This document shows, in pieces, positions 12,524-42,957 of a stretch of 64,000 nt of DNA. The first letter of the stretch is position 1. Each line of letters starts with the position of its first letter. This DNA comes from Copromyces sp. CBS 386.78 (taxonomy: Eukaryota; Ascomycota; Sordariomycetes; Sordariales; Sordariaceae), in contig MU839179.1 in the NCBI GenBank assembly GCA_030685235.1, forward strand, positions 1 through 64,000. The letters are read 5' to 3'. The notes under the pieces were generated by a model. That model searched no databases, was not told the origin of the DNA, and saw nothing but the letters and a program-made list of their open reading frames with translations. A program made the translations under genes and the position numbers.

Positions 12524-13087
12524 TAATTTAGGGAATTTTTTCACGTTTTTTCTTTAGCTAAGGACCACGGGGTCATTAAGGGAGTAAGGTAGTTCATTAC
12601 AAGTAGGAATAAATCAACTACTCAATTAAGTGCTATTAGTTATAAGTTTAAACCTTAAAGATAAAAAAAGAAAAAATCTCCTTCGAAATTTGGGAAGAGA
12701 AATAGGTAGCTTAGACTAAATAATACTCCTTCTTAAAAGAATATATTCGAATTCTAATCCCAAATTCGTTTTCCCGTACTAAATTCATTCTTCCTTTACT
12801 TCGTAATCCCCTCTTAAAAAGATTAACGTTTAAATTTGCTCCTTCAACCTCTCTTAAAAATCCGTTAAAGTATAATACTTTAATATTAGCTCTAATCTTT
12901 TCTAAATAATCGATAATTAGTATATAAAAATCTCTTCGTTTTTATTTTATAAATAAAATCCATTTTACAGCAAATCTACTCTCCTCTTTAAAATATTAAT
13001 TCTTATAATCTTTATATCAATTAAATTAATTTTTCTATAGTAAGGAATTAATCTTTTTTCCTATATAATATTTTCTACTTTAAATTA
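12524..13087 (+). repeat. F 5' LTR
   Basis: This 564-bp LTR pairs with 42,394-42,957. The copies differ mainly by transitions. Positions 13,088-13,123 are the start of the F internal region, ending in the TCCTA duplication of the composite. Confidence 0.9.
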
Positions 13088-13123
13088 AATAGTAATAAGG
13101 ACGAAATAAATTTTAAATTCCTA

Positions 13124-13242
13124 TATTACAGGGTGACATGTGCTATATAAGCGTGTATTCAATATTCTATCTACCAAACAGAACATAGTTCCATCTTTTG
13201 GTGGTATTACCAAGTAGGCAATGCACGCCCTTCTCCGTAACA
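13124..13242 (+). repeat. TRIM 5' LTR
   Basis: This 119-bp LTR differs from its partner at 13,506-13,624 essentially only by transitions. Confidence 0.9.
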
Positions 13243-13274
13243 TTATATTCTATTCCGCGGTGCGATACATCGTG

Positions 13275-13285
13275 GGTTCAATTCC
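13275..13285 (+). promoter_or_regulatory. Pol III B-box-like sequence inside the TRIM
   Basis: GGTTCAATTCC matches the tRNA B-box consensus GGTTCRANTCC and sits in a context resembling a tRNA T-arm, flanked by GTG and CCGC. No convincing A box is seen upstream. It could be a captured tRNA 3' half linked to priming, or chance. Confidence 0.35.
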
Positions 13286-13505
13286 CCGCAGTGACAATGT
13301 TGCAGACGGTTTTTCGGTGACCGTTCGAGACTAACATATGTCAACGATTATCGCATTGGAAAGCGCAGCGCTTTCAGGTGGTATTATATAGCCCACAGCG
13401 ACCGCAAGAGGCGGGAAGACAGCCGTAGTATCGTAGATCTTCTTAAGGGAGCGTCTCCTAGGCTGGGCTGGGGAAGGAGGACGGCCGAATTAAGAAGGGA
13501 GGTAG

Positions 13506-13624
13506 TGTCACAGGGTGACATATGCTATATAAGCGTATATTCAATATTCTATCTACCGAACAGAACATAGTTCCATCTTTTGGTAGTGTTACCAAGTAGG
13601 CAATGCACGCCCTTCTCCGTGACA
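13506..13624 (+). repeat. TRIM 3' LTR
   Basis: The better preserved copy, TGTCACAGGG to CCGTGACA. It is preceded by the polypurine tract and AG, and followed by TTAG and then the J 5' LTR. Confidence 0.9.
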
Positions 13625-13628
13625 TTAG

Positions 13629-13862
13629 TGTCATAGGCATTACCTACTCCTTGTAAATAGATAGGGGTGCTGTACTGTATTAGTGCAGCTAGCTGAGTGT
13701 AGTTGTCTGAGTGTAGTATAGCTATAGTGCCGCCCTGTGGACCTATAACTACAGGGCTTTATACTATGCCCTATATAGTTCTCGTATACGTATAAGTTCT
13801 TCTTCTAATTCCTCGCATAATAATTAATATTATACCTTAATACTTGTACGCGCCCCGTAATA
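13629..13862 (+). repeat. J 5' LTR
   Basis: 234 bp, equal in length to 21,603-21,836. RIP is light at its outer (left) edge and heavy toward the interior. Confidence 0.92.
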
Positions 13863-13899
13863 CTTTATTATATTTAACCTCGCGTTAATGCGCAATAAA

Positions 13900-16230
13900 T
13901 AATTTCAGTAAGGGTTAAGCTTAATAGGAAATTAATAGTAGTTTAGTTTTTACAAATTTTACTTCGAAGCGATTCGTATAATCGCCGATATTAAATTAAG
14001 GATTCTAGCAATTACAACGTCGAACCCTAGAAATAATAAATAAGTATTAGAGTTTTTAAAATAATAAGGGCGTAAATACCGTATTATATAATACAGTAGA
14101 AATATTTTTCTTTTAATAAGTGTTATTTAATTATTTAAGAAAGTATAATTAAGATAGTTAATAATCCAACGGGTAACGATATACGCCGAATTAATTTCGC
14201 TATAATTTTCCCCTCCCTTTTAAAGGGATACGATATATTATTAAAAATCTATAGTAATAATTTTAGCGGCCTTATAATTTCCCTAAATTTTATTAATAAA
14301 GTTTATAACTATAAGGAGGTTATAAAATTACTCTATTATTTTAATAGAAAGATTAACGCTTTTAATAAATAAGTAAAGGAAGAGTAAATTTATTATATTA
14401 AATTTGAAAACAATACTAAATCCTTCGTTAACGAGATATAGGGAAAGGAAAAGTAGTAGAAGACGGCGGAAGAGTAATTAAAAAATTAAATTAATTAATT
14501 TAATAAAATTAAAAAATAATTCGTATAATAGATTTAATTCTTATAATTATAATATAATTAAATTATTACCGAGAATACGTTTCTCTATTTAAAGGTATTA
14601 AATTTTACTTAAAATAAGACCGACTTCTAAAAAAAATTCGACATTATTATTTAAAATAATAAAGAAGATTATTAAAGTTTCTTTAAATTTAATAAAATAA
14701 TTAATAATAATACCGAATTATATAGGGCGGAATTAAAGAAGGTATTAGAGGATTTTAATATTTTACGTATCGTAAGTAAGATCGTTAACGAGGAATCTAC
14801 CTAAATATAAGAAGAAATTAAGAACTTTTAAATTCGTTTCTATTTTACCGAAGAAAATAAGATTATTATTAAAAATAATTATAGCAGTAGCCCTAGAAGA
14901 TTAAGCATAGGAACCGGCTTTAGCACCGGTAATATAAGCGGCGGTCTTAGCGATAGCGGCCTTAGAAGATCGGACATAAATACCGGTAGCTCTAATAATA
15001 TAGGCGGCGGTCCTAGCGATAATAGCCCTAGAAAATCGGGTAAGGGAAGCAGCTTCGGCTATAACAAGGCGGGCGGCGGTCCCGGAAACAAAAGATTTAA
15101 TTACCCTAGAAGCGGAGGATTTAATTATTCCGGCGGTCCTAGCGGCCCCCTTAGTAGCTCTAGCGGTCCCGGCGGTCTTAGAGGTCCCGGCGGTCCCGGC
15201 GGTCCTTACCCCCCCGCTACGGCTCTAGCCCCTATATTATATTATTATAATAAAGCGCTTTATAAAGACCTAGAGCGGTTCAAAGGTAAAGAGACCGATA
15301 TAATTAAGCGCTACAACGTTTATAATACTTAGAATTTAGAAATCCGTAATCGTTAAATCGTTAATAATTATAAGTTTCCTAACGAAATAGCGAAATTATT
15401 TTATACTATATCTTATTTAGGTAGCAAAGCGAAGATTAACATCGTAAAGTATTAAAAAACGATTTTTAATAACCCTTAACACTCTATCCTCTAAAAATAG
15501 TAAATAGGCGAAGAATTCCTAATATACTTAAATAATCGTTATATATAAAGCGATATTATATAGGTCGTAGAAACTTATTATTATAATTTAAATAAACCGG
15601 CAAATAATCTAACTACAAAGATTTTAAAACTTAATTTATTATCCTAATTAATTATTATAATTATAATACAATTACTAAAGTCTATCTTCTTTATTAAAAG
15701 GTCTCTAAATCTTTAATAAATTCAGTTTTATATTATTATATTCAACCCGTTCATAACGATTTTAAAGGATGGTACGAATTATTTAAAAGTATTTCTAAAG
15801 CCTACACTAGAGCCTCTTTACGTAACGATACTATTTAAAATATTTAAAATAGTAATAAAGGTAATAGTAATTCTAATATTAGTAATAAGGATCCTAATAC
15901 TATAGATTTAAATTATACCAAACTTATAGAAATTTATAAGGACGTTTTATAAGAGCGCTACAATAAGGGTATTTATATAAATTATAATAAGGGCAAATAT
16001 ATAGCCCGCAAATATAAGAGCTAAATTAATTACAATAATAAAAGTAAATAAACTAATTATACCGGCTTAAGTATTACAATTCGTAAAAACGCTAATACGG
16101 GTATTCTAGTCACAAACCGTACTATAACGGATACGGCTAATCCGGCCCCGGCCCCGACGGCTCTAATTGCCCTGGCAACTCCAATTCCCGCTAACTAATA
16201 GGGAAATAGAAAACCTTAAGGCTAAATTAC
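13900..16230 (+). pseudogene. J gag relic with Gly/Ser/Pro-rich linker
   Basis: This is the gag region of J. Between about 14,880 and 15,230 it holds a striking low-complexity stretch rich in Gly, Ser, Pro and Arg (for example GGPSGPLSSSSGPGGLRGPG). It survives as a GC-rich island because GGN and CCN codons offer few CpA targets. A possible zinc-knuckle remnant lies near 16,060-16,100 (KYYNS with Tyr for Cys). Stops elsewhere match former Gln and Trp codons. Confidence 0.65.
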
Positions 16231-16379
16231 GTTTAAGGGTATTCGATAGGGATATGAAAAAGGATAGAGATAAGGGTAAATAAATTAAATATTTATATAA
16301 TCGGCTATTAAAAAATAAAACCGTTTAAATTAAATAGTTTAGAATTCTATAAATAAAATATAATCCTACTATTTATATA

Positions 16380-19300
16380 TTTTTAATACCTCTAATATAA
16401 TAATAAAATAGAATATATATTATTAGTCGATTTTAAATATTTAAATAAGGCTTTTATCGACTAATCTTTCGCCGAAAAGGCCTACCTAGGATTTAAACCC
16501 TTAGAGAAACTACGACCGTTATATTTAGCCGACAGTAATTTTAAAGAATAAATAAATTAATACGTCGAAATAATAATACGGATTAATAATTATAACGAAA
16601 TTATTAAATTCTTCGTAACCAGCTTAATAGCGGACCATTTAATAATTTTAGGTTAGCCGTAACTACAACTCTATAATTTAAATATTAATTAAATAACTAA
16701 TAAGATTACTTAGAACGTAGCCTATATAAATATATATATACTTTAATTATTAAAAGTAGCGGTAATCCTAGGTACCATTCTTAAAGAAGAGGATAATAGA
16801 AAGGTCTCCGTCCCTAATAAAGCCGAAAGCGGATCCGCTCTTAAAAAAAAAGATAATAAAAAAGTCTCCGTCCTTAACGAAGCCGAGAACGGATCCGACA
16901 ACAATTCCGGCTTTAACGAATATTTTCTAACCTAAGTAACTAATATAATAAAAGCTCTTAAAGGAAATTAAATTATAATAATAGAATCCCTAATTTCTCT
17001 AGCGTACGCGGGGAAATTTAAAGAACCTTTCGGCCCTATTAGGAAGCTAACGTTAAAAAAGATTAAAGTAAAAGTACAGATTATTAACGGACGAAGGATT
17101 TAAACGATATAATAATTAGAACGAATAAAACGTACGTTCTTTCAATATTTTAAACTAATAATTAATATAGTAGCCCTAAATCTTTTAAATATTAAATTAA
17201 TTAACGCAAGAGCTTTTATACTTAATACGCGGATAAAGGGCGTTAAAATTAATTCTACTATATAAATAGAGCTCTAAGAGGCGTAGAAGGAAAGGAAAGT
17301 AGCTATTTTAATACTATCTTTATCCGAAAACGTATAGAAGGATATTATATAAGGGAGGGGAGAACTATATAAACCCTACTTTAAAAACCTTAAGGTATAC
17401 GAATTTATTAACTTTTATAAAACGGAAATTGTAAATAAAAATAAGGGAAAATAGGCCTTCTAGCCCGGCGAATCCGCGAAAGAATATATTAACCGTATAT
17501 ACGCGTTAAAAATAATAGACGGTAAGCCTTAGTAACCGACCGAAGAATAGGAGCGGAAACTAACCCCCTTAACTGAAATTAATAAAATTTATAGCATTAT
17601 AAAGGAGGATATCTAGAAGTTTATAAATAAAATTATTAAATTAAAATATACCCTAAAGGAAGTAAAAATACACTTCACAAACGAATATAAAGATCTCTCT
17701 TACATCGCTAACCTTTAAAATACTAATATAATACCCGAATATTATTCTTATAATTATAAAATCGAATTAAAATTAGGGGTAGAATTTCTACCCTATTTTA
17801 AAGAACGGCTAATATTATTATAGGAATTTAAAATTATTAAATAATAATTAGATAATAATTTAATAAAGGGATTTATTAGATTATTTACTTCCGACGTCGC
17901 CTCGTTAATATTATTAGTACGTAAACTGGGAGGCGGAGTATAAATCTATATTAATTATAAAAGTATTAACGAAATCTCGCTAAAGAATAAATATTTATTA
18001 TTATTAATTAAAGAGATTCTAAATATTATTTATAAGGCTAAGTAGTTTATAAAAGTAGATATTATCGCTACATTTAATAGACTACGTATAATTAAAAGAT
18101 ATAAATAGTTTATAACCTTTATTACGAGGTTTAACCTCTATAAATCGCTAATATATCTATTCGGTTTATTAGGGGCCCCAGCCTCTTTTTAGAACTTTAT
18201 TAACAATATTTTATATAATATCCTAAATATTTACGCGATAATTTATTTCCATAACGTTTTAATCTTTTTAAAGACCTACGAAGAATATATTAAGTACGTT
18301 AGAGAAGTATTCTAACGTTTAATTAATACAGGCTTATAAATTAATATCGATAAATATAAATTCTATATTTAGAAGATTAAATATTTGGGCTTTATTATTA
18401 TACCCGGCGGTATTAAAATAGATTTAGAAAAGGTAGAAGTAATTATTAAATAGGAAGTATTAACAATAAGGCGCTAACTATAACGTTTTTTAGGCTTTAC
18501 CAACTTCTATAGGAGGTTTATCGCTAATTTCTTACATATAAGCAAGCCGCTATATAAGTTAATAAAGAAAATAATAGATTAGAAGTAGGATAAAGAATAT
18601 AATAATGCTTTTAAAGCCTTAAAAATAGCGTTTACAACCGCGCTAGTCCTAAAAATCTATAATTAGGAAAAACCGACCGTTATTAAGGTCGACGCCTCTA
18701 ATTGGTTAACGGGCGGTATACTATTATAATTGTACGACGGTAAATTATATTTAATCGTTTACTTTTCGGCTAAGTATTCTATAATAGAATATAATTATAA
18801 TATTTATAATAAAGAGTTGCTAACTGTAATTAAAGTATTAAAAAAATAGAGACCGGAGTTAAAGGGCGCTACCTAACCTTTTAAAATTATTATAGACTAT
18901 AAAAACCTTAAAACGTTTAGTACTATAAAAAAGCTTATACTAAAATATATAAAATAATTTGAATTTTTATTTAAATTTAATTTTATAATTAAATATCAAC
19001 TAGGATTAACTAACGTTAGGCCCAACGCCCTAAACTATAAATTAGAATATATATTAAAAGATACGGAAGATAATAGGTTAAAAGTAAGAAAAAAGCCGCT
19101 TATCGACCCTTTATACTTCGATAAAAATTTATTCGAATTAATAAATATAAACGGTAAGGGTTTTATAATAAACGTTATATTAAATACGGGAGCGCCGCTT
19201 ATAATTTATATTTTAGAAGATAACTTTTAAGAGGATGAAGATAGGCTAAGTATTTATACGGACGATTTAGTAGACCGGGCTTACGCTAACTCCTTTATAA

Positions 19301-20800
19301 TAACGGATATTAAGGAAGTTATTAAATTTAGAGATCGTTAGCCAAAATATTTAAAGAAAGTATTAAAAATCCTTTTCGCCGAATATTATATAGTTAACGA
19401 TAGGATTATATTTAAGGATAGGTTAGTAATATCCTTTAACGACGAAGCGGTCTAATTAGAATTAATTTATTATATATACTCCTTAATATAGGGTAACTAC
19501 CTAGGGAGAGATAAGACGATAATATTAATATACCGTTATTTCTAGCTAAGGATAATCGTCGCGGTAAATACCTACTATAAAGCATATATACCCTATAATA
19601 AGACTAAGGCTATTAAAATATTATTAGTAAATTTCTTTAAACTATTACTTATCCTTTATACATTATAGCGCAATATTTCTATCGATTACATAATTCTATT
19701 CCCTAAATTATAACGAACAAGTAGGAGAGCAAAATACTAGCACGTATTAGTAGTTATTAATAAATTAACGAAAATACGGTACTTTATCCCTATAATGGGT
19801 TTAATAATAGAAGAGTTAGTAGATAAGTTTATCGATTGTATTTTTACCCTTTATAGCCTATTAAATACCGTAGTCTCTAATAGAAGTATTTAATTCGTCT
19901 CCGTTTTTTAAAGGCAATTATTATTACGATTAAACGTTAAATTAAAATACTCTATACCCTACTATAAGGAAATTAATAGTTAAACCGAAAAGATTAATAT
20001 AGAATTAAAATAATATTTATATACTTTTATTAATTGATCCTAAGATAATTAAGTTAATTAGCTACCTTTAGCCGAATTTTAGAATAATAATTTTAAATCG
20101 GTATTAACGGGAGTAACCCCCTTTTTCGCTAATTATAATTTTTACCCCCGTATAGGAATAGAATTATCTATATTATTACCCCTAAATATAATAGACGTAT
20201 AAAAGAAGTAGATCTTTAATATTAATTAATTAATATTATAATTTAAAGAGGTTTAAGACTTCGTTAAAATTTCTTCCTTATAAGTATAGGCTAAATACGA
20301 GGCGGCGGCGAACGAATACTATATTAATACCCCTAAATATAAGGTTAGGGATGAGGTTATATTTAATATAATTAATTATATAACGGGTAGGCCGTACGAT
20401 AAATTAGCGCCGCGTTTCGAAAGACCTTTTCGTATTATAAAGGCCAACTTATATATAGTAGAATTAGCCTTACCTAGTAATATAAAAGTTATTTATATTA
20501 TTAATATATTATAGGTTAAATTATATATTAAAGGTCTACCGGGCTAAATAGAATTAATAATTAATATTAAGGCTAATAAAACTATAATTATTATTAAAAT
20601 TAATAATTTCGAAGAAAATAAACGCTAAAAGTTTAAAGAACTTTTAAATTATTAGAAGATTAAGGGACGCTAATATTATTTAGTAAAATAATTTTACTAC
20701 CCTTTAGATTAATAGCTAATAACTAATTTCGATAATTATTATAAATTAGTCTAAAATCTTTATAAGAAACGATTAAACTTAGGACTACTATAAATCGATT
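16380..20800 (+). pseudogene. J pol relic (protease, RT, RNase H, integrase, chromodomain)
   Basis: Retropepsin begins at about 16,407 as LVDFKYLNKAFIDQSF, keeping the catalytic Asp, and ends near 16,640 with the typical HLIILGQP. RT at about 18,070-18,590 has the box region YFHNVLIF, followed by YLGFIIIPGGI and FLGFTNFYRRFI. RNase H follows to about 19,000. Integrase at about 19,480-20,200 shows VVSNRSIQF for VVSDRGSQF and retains the Glu region QTEKINIEL. The chromodomain at 20,615-20,760 reads KFKELLNY, YYLVK and YYPLD, with Trp codons turned to stops. The gene is dead. Confidence 0.8.
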
Positions 20801-21602
20801 TTAAAAAGGGATTTAAGGCTTAGCTAAAGGTAGAGGAAGCTCCTATAGAGGAAGTTTATAATAAAGAAGCCTATACTAAAGTACCCTCTCTAATCCTTAT
20901 TACAATTATTTTCAAGGCGGATAACCAGCAGGTTAGGCGGAGTATAAAATTGAATAATAAGTAAAGTAATATTAATAAGGATATAAAAAAGAAGTTCAAT
21001 ATAGTTTATTTTACGTATCTTAGCCGAATCGCCTTATAAATACCTTATTATAGTAGTAAGGGTACTATTAATAATAACCGGGAGATAATATATCTTATAG
21101 CGGACCTACGTCTCCTTTCCCCTAATAACCCAACCCCCCTAATTAATAGTTAAAGCCTATACGGTTAAAATTTTATATTGTAGTTAATAAAGGGAAGGGA
21201 GACAATTATAAGATAGAGAAAAGGTAATTATAACGATTATAAACGAGATTCGAATAGAGGGCTTCTATAATTTATAATATTAATAAAAATATAAACGTCC
21301 TTATATATTACTATACTACGGGCGTCCCTATAACACCCCTCGTCGGGGGTTAATAATAGTATAATATAAATAAAAGGTTTATAAAATTACTAAGAACGTT
21401 TTAAGCCTATTTAGGATTATTTAAAGTAATAATCGAATAGTTTTTAGGAAAAGGGTATATTTAATAATATTTTGGCTAGTATTCGACCCCTTAATAGGAA
21501 GCTTAACGCTAAGCGCTTACCCGCCTTAATATATCCTACTTTATAGATATTAATAGTTTTTAGACGGTTTTAAAGCCGGGAATTAATTTTGAAGGGGGGT
21601 AG
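20800..21602 (+). other. J post-pol region and polypurine tract
   Basis: This holds the C-terminal extension of pol to about 21,150 and then untranslated AT-rich sequence. The polypurine tract GAAGGGGGGTAG ends immediately before the 3' LTR at 21,603. Confidence 0.6.
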
Positions 21603-21836
21603 TATCACAGGCATTACCTACTCCTTATAGATAAATAGGGGTACTATATTACATTAGTACAGCCAACTGAATATAGCTATTTGAATATAGTATAGCTATA
21701 GTGCCGCCCTGTAGACCTATAACTATAGGGCTCCATACTATGCCCTATATAGTTCTCGTGTGCGTATAGGTTCCTCTTCTGGTTCTTCGTACAATAATCA
21801 ACAACGTACCTTAGTGCTTGCACGCGCCCCGTGATA
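21603..21836 (+). repeat. J 3' LTR
   Basis: 234 bp. The outer half, from about 21,680, is almost unmutated and the inner part is lightly mutated. The TCCTA duplication follows at 21,837. Confidence 0.92.
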
Positions 21837-22859
21837 TCCTAACTAAATTAATTAATACGAATTTAAAGAGTTTTCGGCCGAAATTTTTTATAAACGTTAA
21901 AACTATCCCCGCTTCCCTCGGGATATTAATTTAAAAGCCGAAAGTTAAATAATAAATAATTAATTACTTCCTTCAATAAAGAAATTTTTTATTCGATTCA
22001 ATAAAGATTTTAATTCCAAATATATACGAATTTTAAACTCTTTATCCAATTTATAATTTACTAATACCCTTCAACGAATATACTAACCCCTTTCCCCTCT
22101 TTAATTAGACTATAATTAACGCAAAATACGAAAACGAACTATTTTGAAATATTAATTCAATAAAACGATAAACTAAAAACTAGAAAATTAGTAATTTAAA
22201 TTATATAACAAATTAAAAATTATAAATTAACGATAAATAAGGAATTCCCCCCTTACTACTTCCGCCTATATTCAATATAAATATTCGTAATTTATATACC
22301 GAATTCCTCTTTAAAATAGTCGCAACCTTTTTAAAGTATATTATATTAATATTTCAAATAATTCTAACCAACCTTTTACAAATAGCTAATTTCTTATTAA
22401 AAATAAATACGGTTAGAAAGGCAATACTTATTACTTATTACAATAATAAATACCGCTAATTAAACGAAATTATAACAAGACTTCCGAATTAATATAATAC
22501 CTAATACCCTAATCGAAATACAAACACTTTAATCTAAATAATATAAAGGTACTTAAAAAATAAGAAGTATTTCGATAAAGGATACTAAATTTACCCGTCT
22601 CCAAATAACTATACTAACCTAAAATATAACCTTATACAACTACTAATATATTTTCCTCTTTATTATAATACTTTAACCTAAAGACCTTTACTTTACAATT
22701 AATTATTATTAAATATTATATTTAATACCTCTTCCTCCCTTTCCGCTCTGAAAATTTCTCCTTCCCCCAATATTTAAAAGCCTACTATACTAGGAATCTT
22801 TAACCTTACTATTCTCCTTATTAAAAATAATACTATAATTTATATTTGTAATATTAACC

Positions 22860-42393: not shown

Positions 42394-42957
42394 TAATTTA
42401 AAGAATTTTTTCACGTTTTTTCTTTAATTAAAAACTATAAAATTATCAACGGAATAAAGTAATTTATTATAAGTAGGAGCAAATCAATTATTTAATTAAG
42501 TACTATTAATTATAAATTTAAACTTTAAAAATAAAAAGAAAAGGAATTTCCTTCGAAATTTAGGAAGAAAAATAAGCAATTTAAATTAAATAATACTCCT
42601 TCTTAAAAAAATATATTCGAATTCTAATCCTGAATTCGTTTTCCCCTATTAAATTTATTCTTCCTTTACTTTATAATCCCCTCTTAAAAAAATTAACGTT
42701 TAAATTTACTCCTTCAACCTCTCTTAAGGATCTATTAGAGTATAATATTTTAATATTAACTCTAATCTCCTCTAAGTAGTCGATAGTTAGTATATAAAGA
42801 TCTCCTCATCTTCATTTTACAAATAGGATCTATTTCATAGCAGATCTACTCTCCTCTTTAAAGTATTGATTCTTATAATCTTTACGTTAATTGAATTAGT
42901 TTTTCTGTGGTAGGGAGCTGGGTTCTCTTCCTATGTGGTATTTTCCACTCCAAATCA
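42394..42957 (+). repeat. F 3' LTR
   Basis: 564 bp. The last 200 bp are close to unmutated, ending CCACTCCAAATCA. GTAT follows as the target duplication. Confidence 0.9.

Follow-up and report, generated by a model that had tools for sequence, protein, structure and literature searches.

The window analysed in this work is a stretch of 64,000 nucleotides from contig MU839179.1 of Copromyces sp. CBS 386.78, which is A+T-rich (72%) and contains no N. Within it, a 501-bp TRIM (13124-13624) is followed, across a spacer consisting of the four bases TTAG, by an 8,208-bp Gypsy element referred to here as J (13629-21836), and the pair is flanked on each of its outer sides by the sequence TCCTA, the two copies of which are identical at 5/5 bases. 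The positions of the two elements, of the spacer and of the TCCTA copies, and the lack of any duplication on the inner sides, had been proposed in a first-pass annotation and all of them are confirmed on the window sequence (Table 1). The composite contains four complete LTRs, two for each of the elements, and the LTRs of TRIM and J which meet across TTAG are in the same orientation, i.e. they abut in the manner of a two-LTR junction. At the inner boundary, neither of the two elements has a target duplication of its own, as the bases to the left and right are TCCTA and TTAGT for the TRIM and ATTAG and TCCTA for J. The probability that two random 5-mers of the window are identical is 0.0024 based on base composition and 0.0041 based on the observed 5-mers, and TTAG accounts for a share of 0.0063 of the window 4-mers. 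A search of positions 12900-22100 against Rfam gave no match at E values up to 1.

Table 1. Positions in the window of the features that make up the TRIM-J locus
Feature	Position	Strand	Remarks
Left TCCTA copy (single outer target-site duplication)	13119..13123	+	Present once in each of the 6 empty sites read among the 38 paralogs
TRIM 5' LTR	13124..13242	+	TATTAC...GTAACA; transition-type differences from TGTCAC...GTGACA
Self-primer segment in TRIM 5' LTR	13176..13186	+	AAACAGAACAT; the 3' LTR form, from 13558, is GAACAGAACAT
TT and 11-nt self-primer binding site	13243..13255	+	Two transitions from the site of C6 and C193
tRNA T-arm/B-box-like segment in TRIM	13271..13287	+	Exact form at 10 genome places, window copy included
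TRIM polypurine tract GAAGGGAGGTAG	13494..13505	+	AG end adjoins the 3' LTR
TRIM 3' LTR	13506..13624	+	TGTCAC...GTGACA
TTAG junction	13625..13628	+	Predicted TRIM U5-side TT and J U3-side AG; absent from the six empty sites read
Gypsy J 5' LTR	13629..13862	+	LTR pair comparison, genome copies
CT and putative self-primer binding site of J	13863..13873	+	Damaged in the window copy; 7 nt pairing
Degenerate J reverse transcriptase and RNase H	18004..18969	+	Profile matches; coordinates computed from residue ranges
Weak Tf2-1-like SH3 match in J	20380..20493	+	PF24626, E 0.002, 18.6 bits vs curated cut-off of 30
J polypurine tract GAAGGGGGGTAG	21591..21602	+	AG end adjoins the 3' LTR
Gypsy J 3' LTR	21603..21836	+	Paired with the 5' LTR
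Right TCCTA copy (outer target-site duplication)	21837..21841	+	Paired with the left copy

The DNA adjoining the pair (12960-13123 and 21842-22039) belongs to a high-copy damaged repeat, of which this part is present in at least 38 further copies. When the outer flanks were joined with one TCCTA and this sequence was used as a query against the genome (49.8 Mb in 273 contigs), 40 places were scored among 104 candidates. Two of these 40 are the halves of the TRIM-J locus itself, and the other 38 all span the join, with a target equal in length to the query in 35 of them and one base different in the remaining 3. The six of these 38 paralogous empty sites which were read are all (6/6) ungapped across the join and carry a single TCCTA; as they lack TTAG, the spacer is not host target DNA. 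In comparison to the empty target, the locus has gained exactly the TRIM, TTAG, J and one TCCTA, and a single duplication of the length found in these families, which is present once in the empty site, surrounds the entire unit. A further partial copy of the left flank of the target is found in the window at 42581-42955 (84% identity), and a Pfam search of one copy of the target repeat (L088) gave no match.

The window TRIM is under 1 kb and has two short LTRs, a primer site, a polypurine tract and, within its family, a target duplication of constant length. Its LTRs of 119 bp are identical at 111/119 positions and all 8 differences are transitions. The TRIM core motif, allowing 0-1 mismatch, occurs at 16 places, all of which were read except C38, C40:235 kb, C84 and C112. 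All 7 of the 7 other two-ended TRIMs have a 5-bp duplication of their own (viz. AGTAA, GAAGG, AGTTG, ATAGT, TTAGC, ATAAT and GTTAG), where this count includes C35, which has an N run in its 3' LTR, and C188, which has a nested LTR inside, and leaves out the copies that are cut off or broken (C42 twice, C101:92 kb and C40:328 kb) and the LTR fragments C61 and C88. A solo LTR at C44 has CAAGA on both sides.

The TRIM group also contains primer sites that are complementary to the element's own LTR. In the copy C193, an 11-nt site located exactly 2 nt past the 5' LTR is the exact complement of GAACAGAACAT in its own LTR, and in a second subfamily (C188, C43 and C166) a different 11-nt site, also at +2, is likewise an exact complement of the LTR of the same element, so that exact 11-nt pairing is seen in 4/8 full TRIMs. 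In the subfamilies A and B the primer sequence and its site change together, and the C193-type and C188/C43/C166-type primer sets pair with each other over at most 4 nt. However, the C193-type pairs over up to 8 nt with a third subfamily (C39), and those two subfamilies are therefore not independent. Pairing with the own LTR fails in the other 4/8 TRIMs (5 nt in the window copy, 0 in C6, 4 in C35 and 7 in C39), where the misfits, as judged by eye, are transitions. The primer sites of the window copy and C6 have an 11-nt match on the LTR of a relative, and the 3' LTR of the window TRIM, with its form GAACAGAACAT, is exactly complementary over 11 nt to the primer sites found in C6 and C193.

Self-primed non-coding TRIMs are represented by 13124-13624 and by L004, L043, L081 and L083, which fall in two subfamilies with different primer sequences, and a third subfamily (L084, L085) seems, by eye, to be self-primed in the same manner. 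The tRNA T-arm/B-box-like segment at 13271-13287 is kept in the interiors of TRIMs whose LTRs differ. In C188 (L043 1270-1520), an LTR of the K family lies exactly at the boundary of the TRIM polypurine tract and 3' LTR with the duplication GTAGT; in C42 (L079, reverse complement 200-300), the end of a K-type LTR adjoins the inside of the TRIM 5' LTR; and the N run within the TRIM 3' LTR of C35 (L003) represents either an assembly gap or a withheld stretch.

The LTRs of J are 234 bp each and identical at 192/234 positions, with 41 transitions and 1 transversion between them. The almost exclusive occurrence of transitions in the LTR pairs of both TRIM and J is the pattern that RIP would leave, and because nearly all of the differences are transitions, TRIM and J cannot be dated separately from the divergence of their LTRs. 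Profile matches in J were obtained for RVT_1 (E 9.5e-12), RT_RNaseH_2 (E 3.4e-19) and RT_RNaseH (E 3.4e-15); a chromodomain and an integrase core were not found in this profile search of a heavily damaged copy, in which the sole match to SH3_Tf2-1 is below the cut-off. In the search for J LTRs, 40 of 80 candidates were scored and 30 loci were read. Counting elements with a 5' and a 3' LTR on the same contig and strand, and excluding the window copy, a perfect 5-bp duplication of its own is present in 7/7 other J elements for which both ends were read (viz. ATTCT, TATTT, AATTC, CCTTC, GCTTA, GTTAC and ATATA). The J elements at C8 and C30, whose LTRs are about 16 and 22 kb apart, probably hold nested DNA. 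In the 20 copies examined, the bases directly after the J 5' LTR are CT or TT, and at offset 2 a self-complement is present that is exact over 9 nt in 3/20 5' LTRs, over 8 nt in 2 more and over 7 nt in the window copy, these figures being for A+T-rich sequence without a shuffle control. A self-primer of J is thus weakly supported.

The lack of duplications on the inner sides, the TCCTA on the outer sides, the empty sites in paralogous copies of the target and the normal duplications of both families, when considered together, provide good support for a single co-integration, and the probability that TRIM and J represent one integration event is placed at about 0.86, on a case made up of a single locus in one genome. 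If instead the two elements had inserted successively at the same 5-bp target (TCCTA-TRIM-TCCTA-J-TCCTA) and the middle TCCTA had later changed into TTAG, then the outer duplication would be explained without any joining of cDNAs. However, this requires that the same 5 bp were hit twice, followed by changes such as the loss of CC and the gain of G that happened to match the letters predicted for the cDNA ends, whereas the K LTR nested in the C188 TRIM retains GTAGT on both of its sides, and we regard such a history as improbable. It is also conceivable that the pair was fused elsewhere at an earlier stage and that the copy seen here resulted from its later transposition as one element, which would give the same anatomy and a single duplication. 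This is less probable still, as no other TRIM-J junction was found in the genome, where the junction pattern has one genuine match, the TRIM LTR ends of this type number only three at up to 3 mismatches (two at this locus and one at C6), and a composite with internal LTRs is expected to transpose in parts.

An artefact in which a TRIM contig was joined to a J contig has to be considered for a repeat-rich assembly of 273 contigs with an N run inside the C35 TRIM, but the window is free of N and a false join is not expected to produce matching duplications around one contiguous target repeat, which makes this explanation very improbable. Repeats commonly recombine in repeat-rich regions, and a deletion or ectopic recombination could in principle have placed two separate insertions next to each other, in which case the outer TCCTA copies would match by chance. 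However, the breakpoints would then have to fall exactly at two LTR ends in addition to a chance match at 5/5 bases (at the probabilities given above), and such events normally bring together flanks from two places, whereas the flanks here are contiguous in 38 paralogs; of these four histories it is the least probable. A nested insertion was rejected as the inner element, whichever of the two it is taken to be, has no duplication of its own, and a TRIM tandem array with shared LTRs was rejected as the four LTRs are separate.

In the first-pass annotation, TTAG was interpreted as the two extra bases of one cDNA end placed next to those of another (U5+2 next to 2+U3), and this interpretation is strengthened by the information from the two families. 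The 11-nt self-primer site of the TRIM begins 2 nt after the LTR, and the TRIM cDNA is therefore predicted to end in LTR+TT. On the other side, AG is found directly before the 3' LTR in 8/8 TRIMs including the window copy (in C188, this AG is part of the target duplicated by the nested LTR), and TAG, and so also AG, is found at this position in 10/10 J elements, again including the window copy. TTAG would thus consist of the bases expected at the two cDNA ends, where these ends are themselves predicted from sequence. Due to the TA microhomology, the breakpoints TT/AG, T/TAG and TTA/G are indistinguishable. Further, it was proposed earlier that the joined ends were unprocessed linear cDNA ends. 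The letters TT and AG are as this proposal predicts, but they should not be interpreted as establishing the unprocessed state, as 3'-processed ends which were later filled in would give the same letters. The self-primer of Tf1 is reportedly not removed during reverse transcription. If the primer is similarly retained here, then the intact end of the TRIM would be about 11 nt longer, and the junction, which is without these bases, would require either trimming or joining at the TA microhomology.

For the co-integration of the two elements, the following course of events may be proposed. A TRIM cDNA ending in LTR+TT and a J cDNA beginning with AG+LTR would have been present together, and a single set of Gypsy proteins probably produced both. 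The outer left end of the TRIM and the outer right end of J would have been attached by integrase at one target with a 5-bp stagger, and ligation, most likely through host end joining, would have connected the right end of the TRIM with the left end of J, by analogy with the retroviral two-LTR circle. In our judgement, on which the weights given to the three joining routes are based, there is about an even chance that the ends of TRIM and J were ligated before integration; ligation after a mixed-end integration using one end of each cDNA is possible but is given a clearly smaller share, and an end-to-end jump of the reverse transcriptase is unlikely. The sequence produced by joining before integration is the same as that produced by a mixed-end integration with subsequent ligation. 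Hence, of the earlier proposal of end joining before a single integration, the single co-integration stands, whereas the prior joining is not established. It can only tentatively be suggested that a mixed-end complex used the left end of the TRIM and the right end of its helper because both had been reverse-transcribed in the same particle. Over 27 nt covering the polypurine tract and the start of the LTR, TRIM and J match at 85% (E 0.004), and one integrase could therefore plausibly act on both of them. The sequence likeness makes J a plausible helper of the TRIM, but the LTRs of K, another Gypsy-like LTR family, have similar termini, and the earlier idea that J is the helper is not established.

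The first-pass annotation had also suggested a search for other TRIM-J or J-J junctions with TTAG or similar spacers of 4 nt. In four usable genome-wide pattern searches, in which RIP changes and few others were allowed, no second genuine junction was found in this genome; damaged junctions, or junctions of TRIM ends with other spacers, could escape these patterns. A pattern leading from J end to J start with a spacer of 0-12 nt, which fits 28/30 J LTR ends and 30/30 starts read and has TRIM ends outside its coverage, gave 0 matches. The pattern GTRAYANNAGTRTYAYARG, which fits the TRIM end but only 6/30 J ends, gave 3 matches (control 0), one of which is the TRIM-J locus. The match at C87 was rejected, as its left side is not an LTR, and the one at C188 was rejected as it represents the nested K LTR with the duplication GTAGT. 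With CCYRTRAYA-(0-8 nt)-TRTYAYARG, fitting 28/30 J ends and 30/30 J starts but not the TRIM end of the TRIM-J locus, 5 places (7 rows) were obtained, none of them genuine by eye and at chance level in view of the 5 rows from a reversed control. The head-to-head and tail-to-tail pattern gave 0 matches (control 2), and one further pattern was set aside as A+T-rich noise (134 matches, control 23). The TRIM-J fusion is thus a single well-documented event and should not be interpreted as a shown habit of TRIM or J elements. Two other arrangements involving K-type LTRs were noted. At C81 (L076 1260-1780), two of them are arranged tail to tail with about 2 nt between them; the forward LTR lacks its end and is apparently truncated, and its partner LTR was not found in the 1.1 kb where it is expected. 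At the contig end C214 (L078 2090-2205), TTAGGG telomere repeats are present near a K-type LTR.

The junction of a retroviral two-LTR circle, like that of TRIM and J, is one in which two complete LTRs abut, and in the retroviral junction the cDNA ends contribute a few additional bases. However, the LTRs in the present case are from two different elements, and the junction is linear, chromosomal and enclosed by one target duplication. The precursor of the retroviral provirus is, according to a review, the linear cDNA rather than the circles. TRIM tandem arrays (maize Wukong and bivalve biv-TRIM) resemble TRIM-J in having several LTRs and internal regions in a unit. In these arrays the LTRs are shared, according to the pattern TDRx_I(x-1), and recombination is given as their origin (PMC4528315, PMC6934838), whereas TRIM-J has four complete LTRs, a spacer and members of two families. 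In the Tf1/sushi group, self-priming takes place from a site just after the 5' LTR that is complementary to the element's own LTR (PMC6317226), and for Tj1 the self-priming geometry and a 5-bp duplication are described (PMC4600332). The TRIMs studied here are like Tf1 and Tj1 in having a primer site just past the 5' LTR with complementarity to the own LTR, a 5-bp duplication occurs in both TRIM and J as in Tj1, and J shows the weak, below cut-off, Tf2-1-like SH3 match. The differences are that the clearest self-primers are in the non-coding TRIMs, that the primer of J itself is damaged and that no chromodomain was found. In yeast, Ty1 cDNA multimers show that more than one cDNA can enter together, as at the TRIM-J locus; such arrays result from cDNA recombination and have shared LTRs, whereas the LTRs of TRIM-J are unshared. 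In the literature surveyed, which consisted of titles and the openings of abstracts with most subscription journals outside it, no heterologous two-LTR co-integrant was found. TRIM-J represents the two-LTR junction of retroviruses in a heterologous form.

The assignment of a TRIM to the autonomous element that mobilises it is often no more than a guess based on sequence similarity, and a fused co-integrant provides physical evidence that the cDNAs of TRIM and J met. In addition, the chromosome here preserves an end-joined junction of a kind for which extrachromosomal DNA is the main source, and it does so in a form which is searchable in any genome, and as the self-primed TRIM subfamilies predict the cDNA ends independently, such junctions are testable. 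If the mixed-end reading is true, then this locus would physically record that a non-coding parasite and its helper had been packaged together, and it would indicate a route by which such a parasite may travel with its helper.
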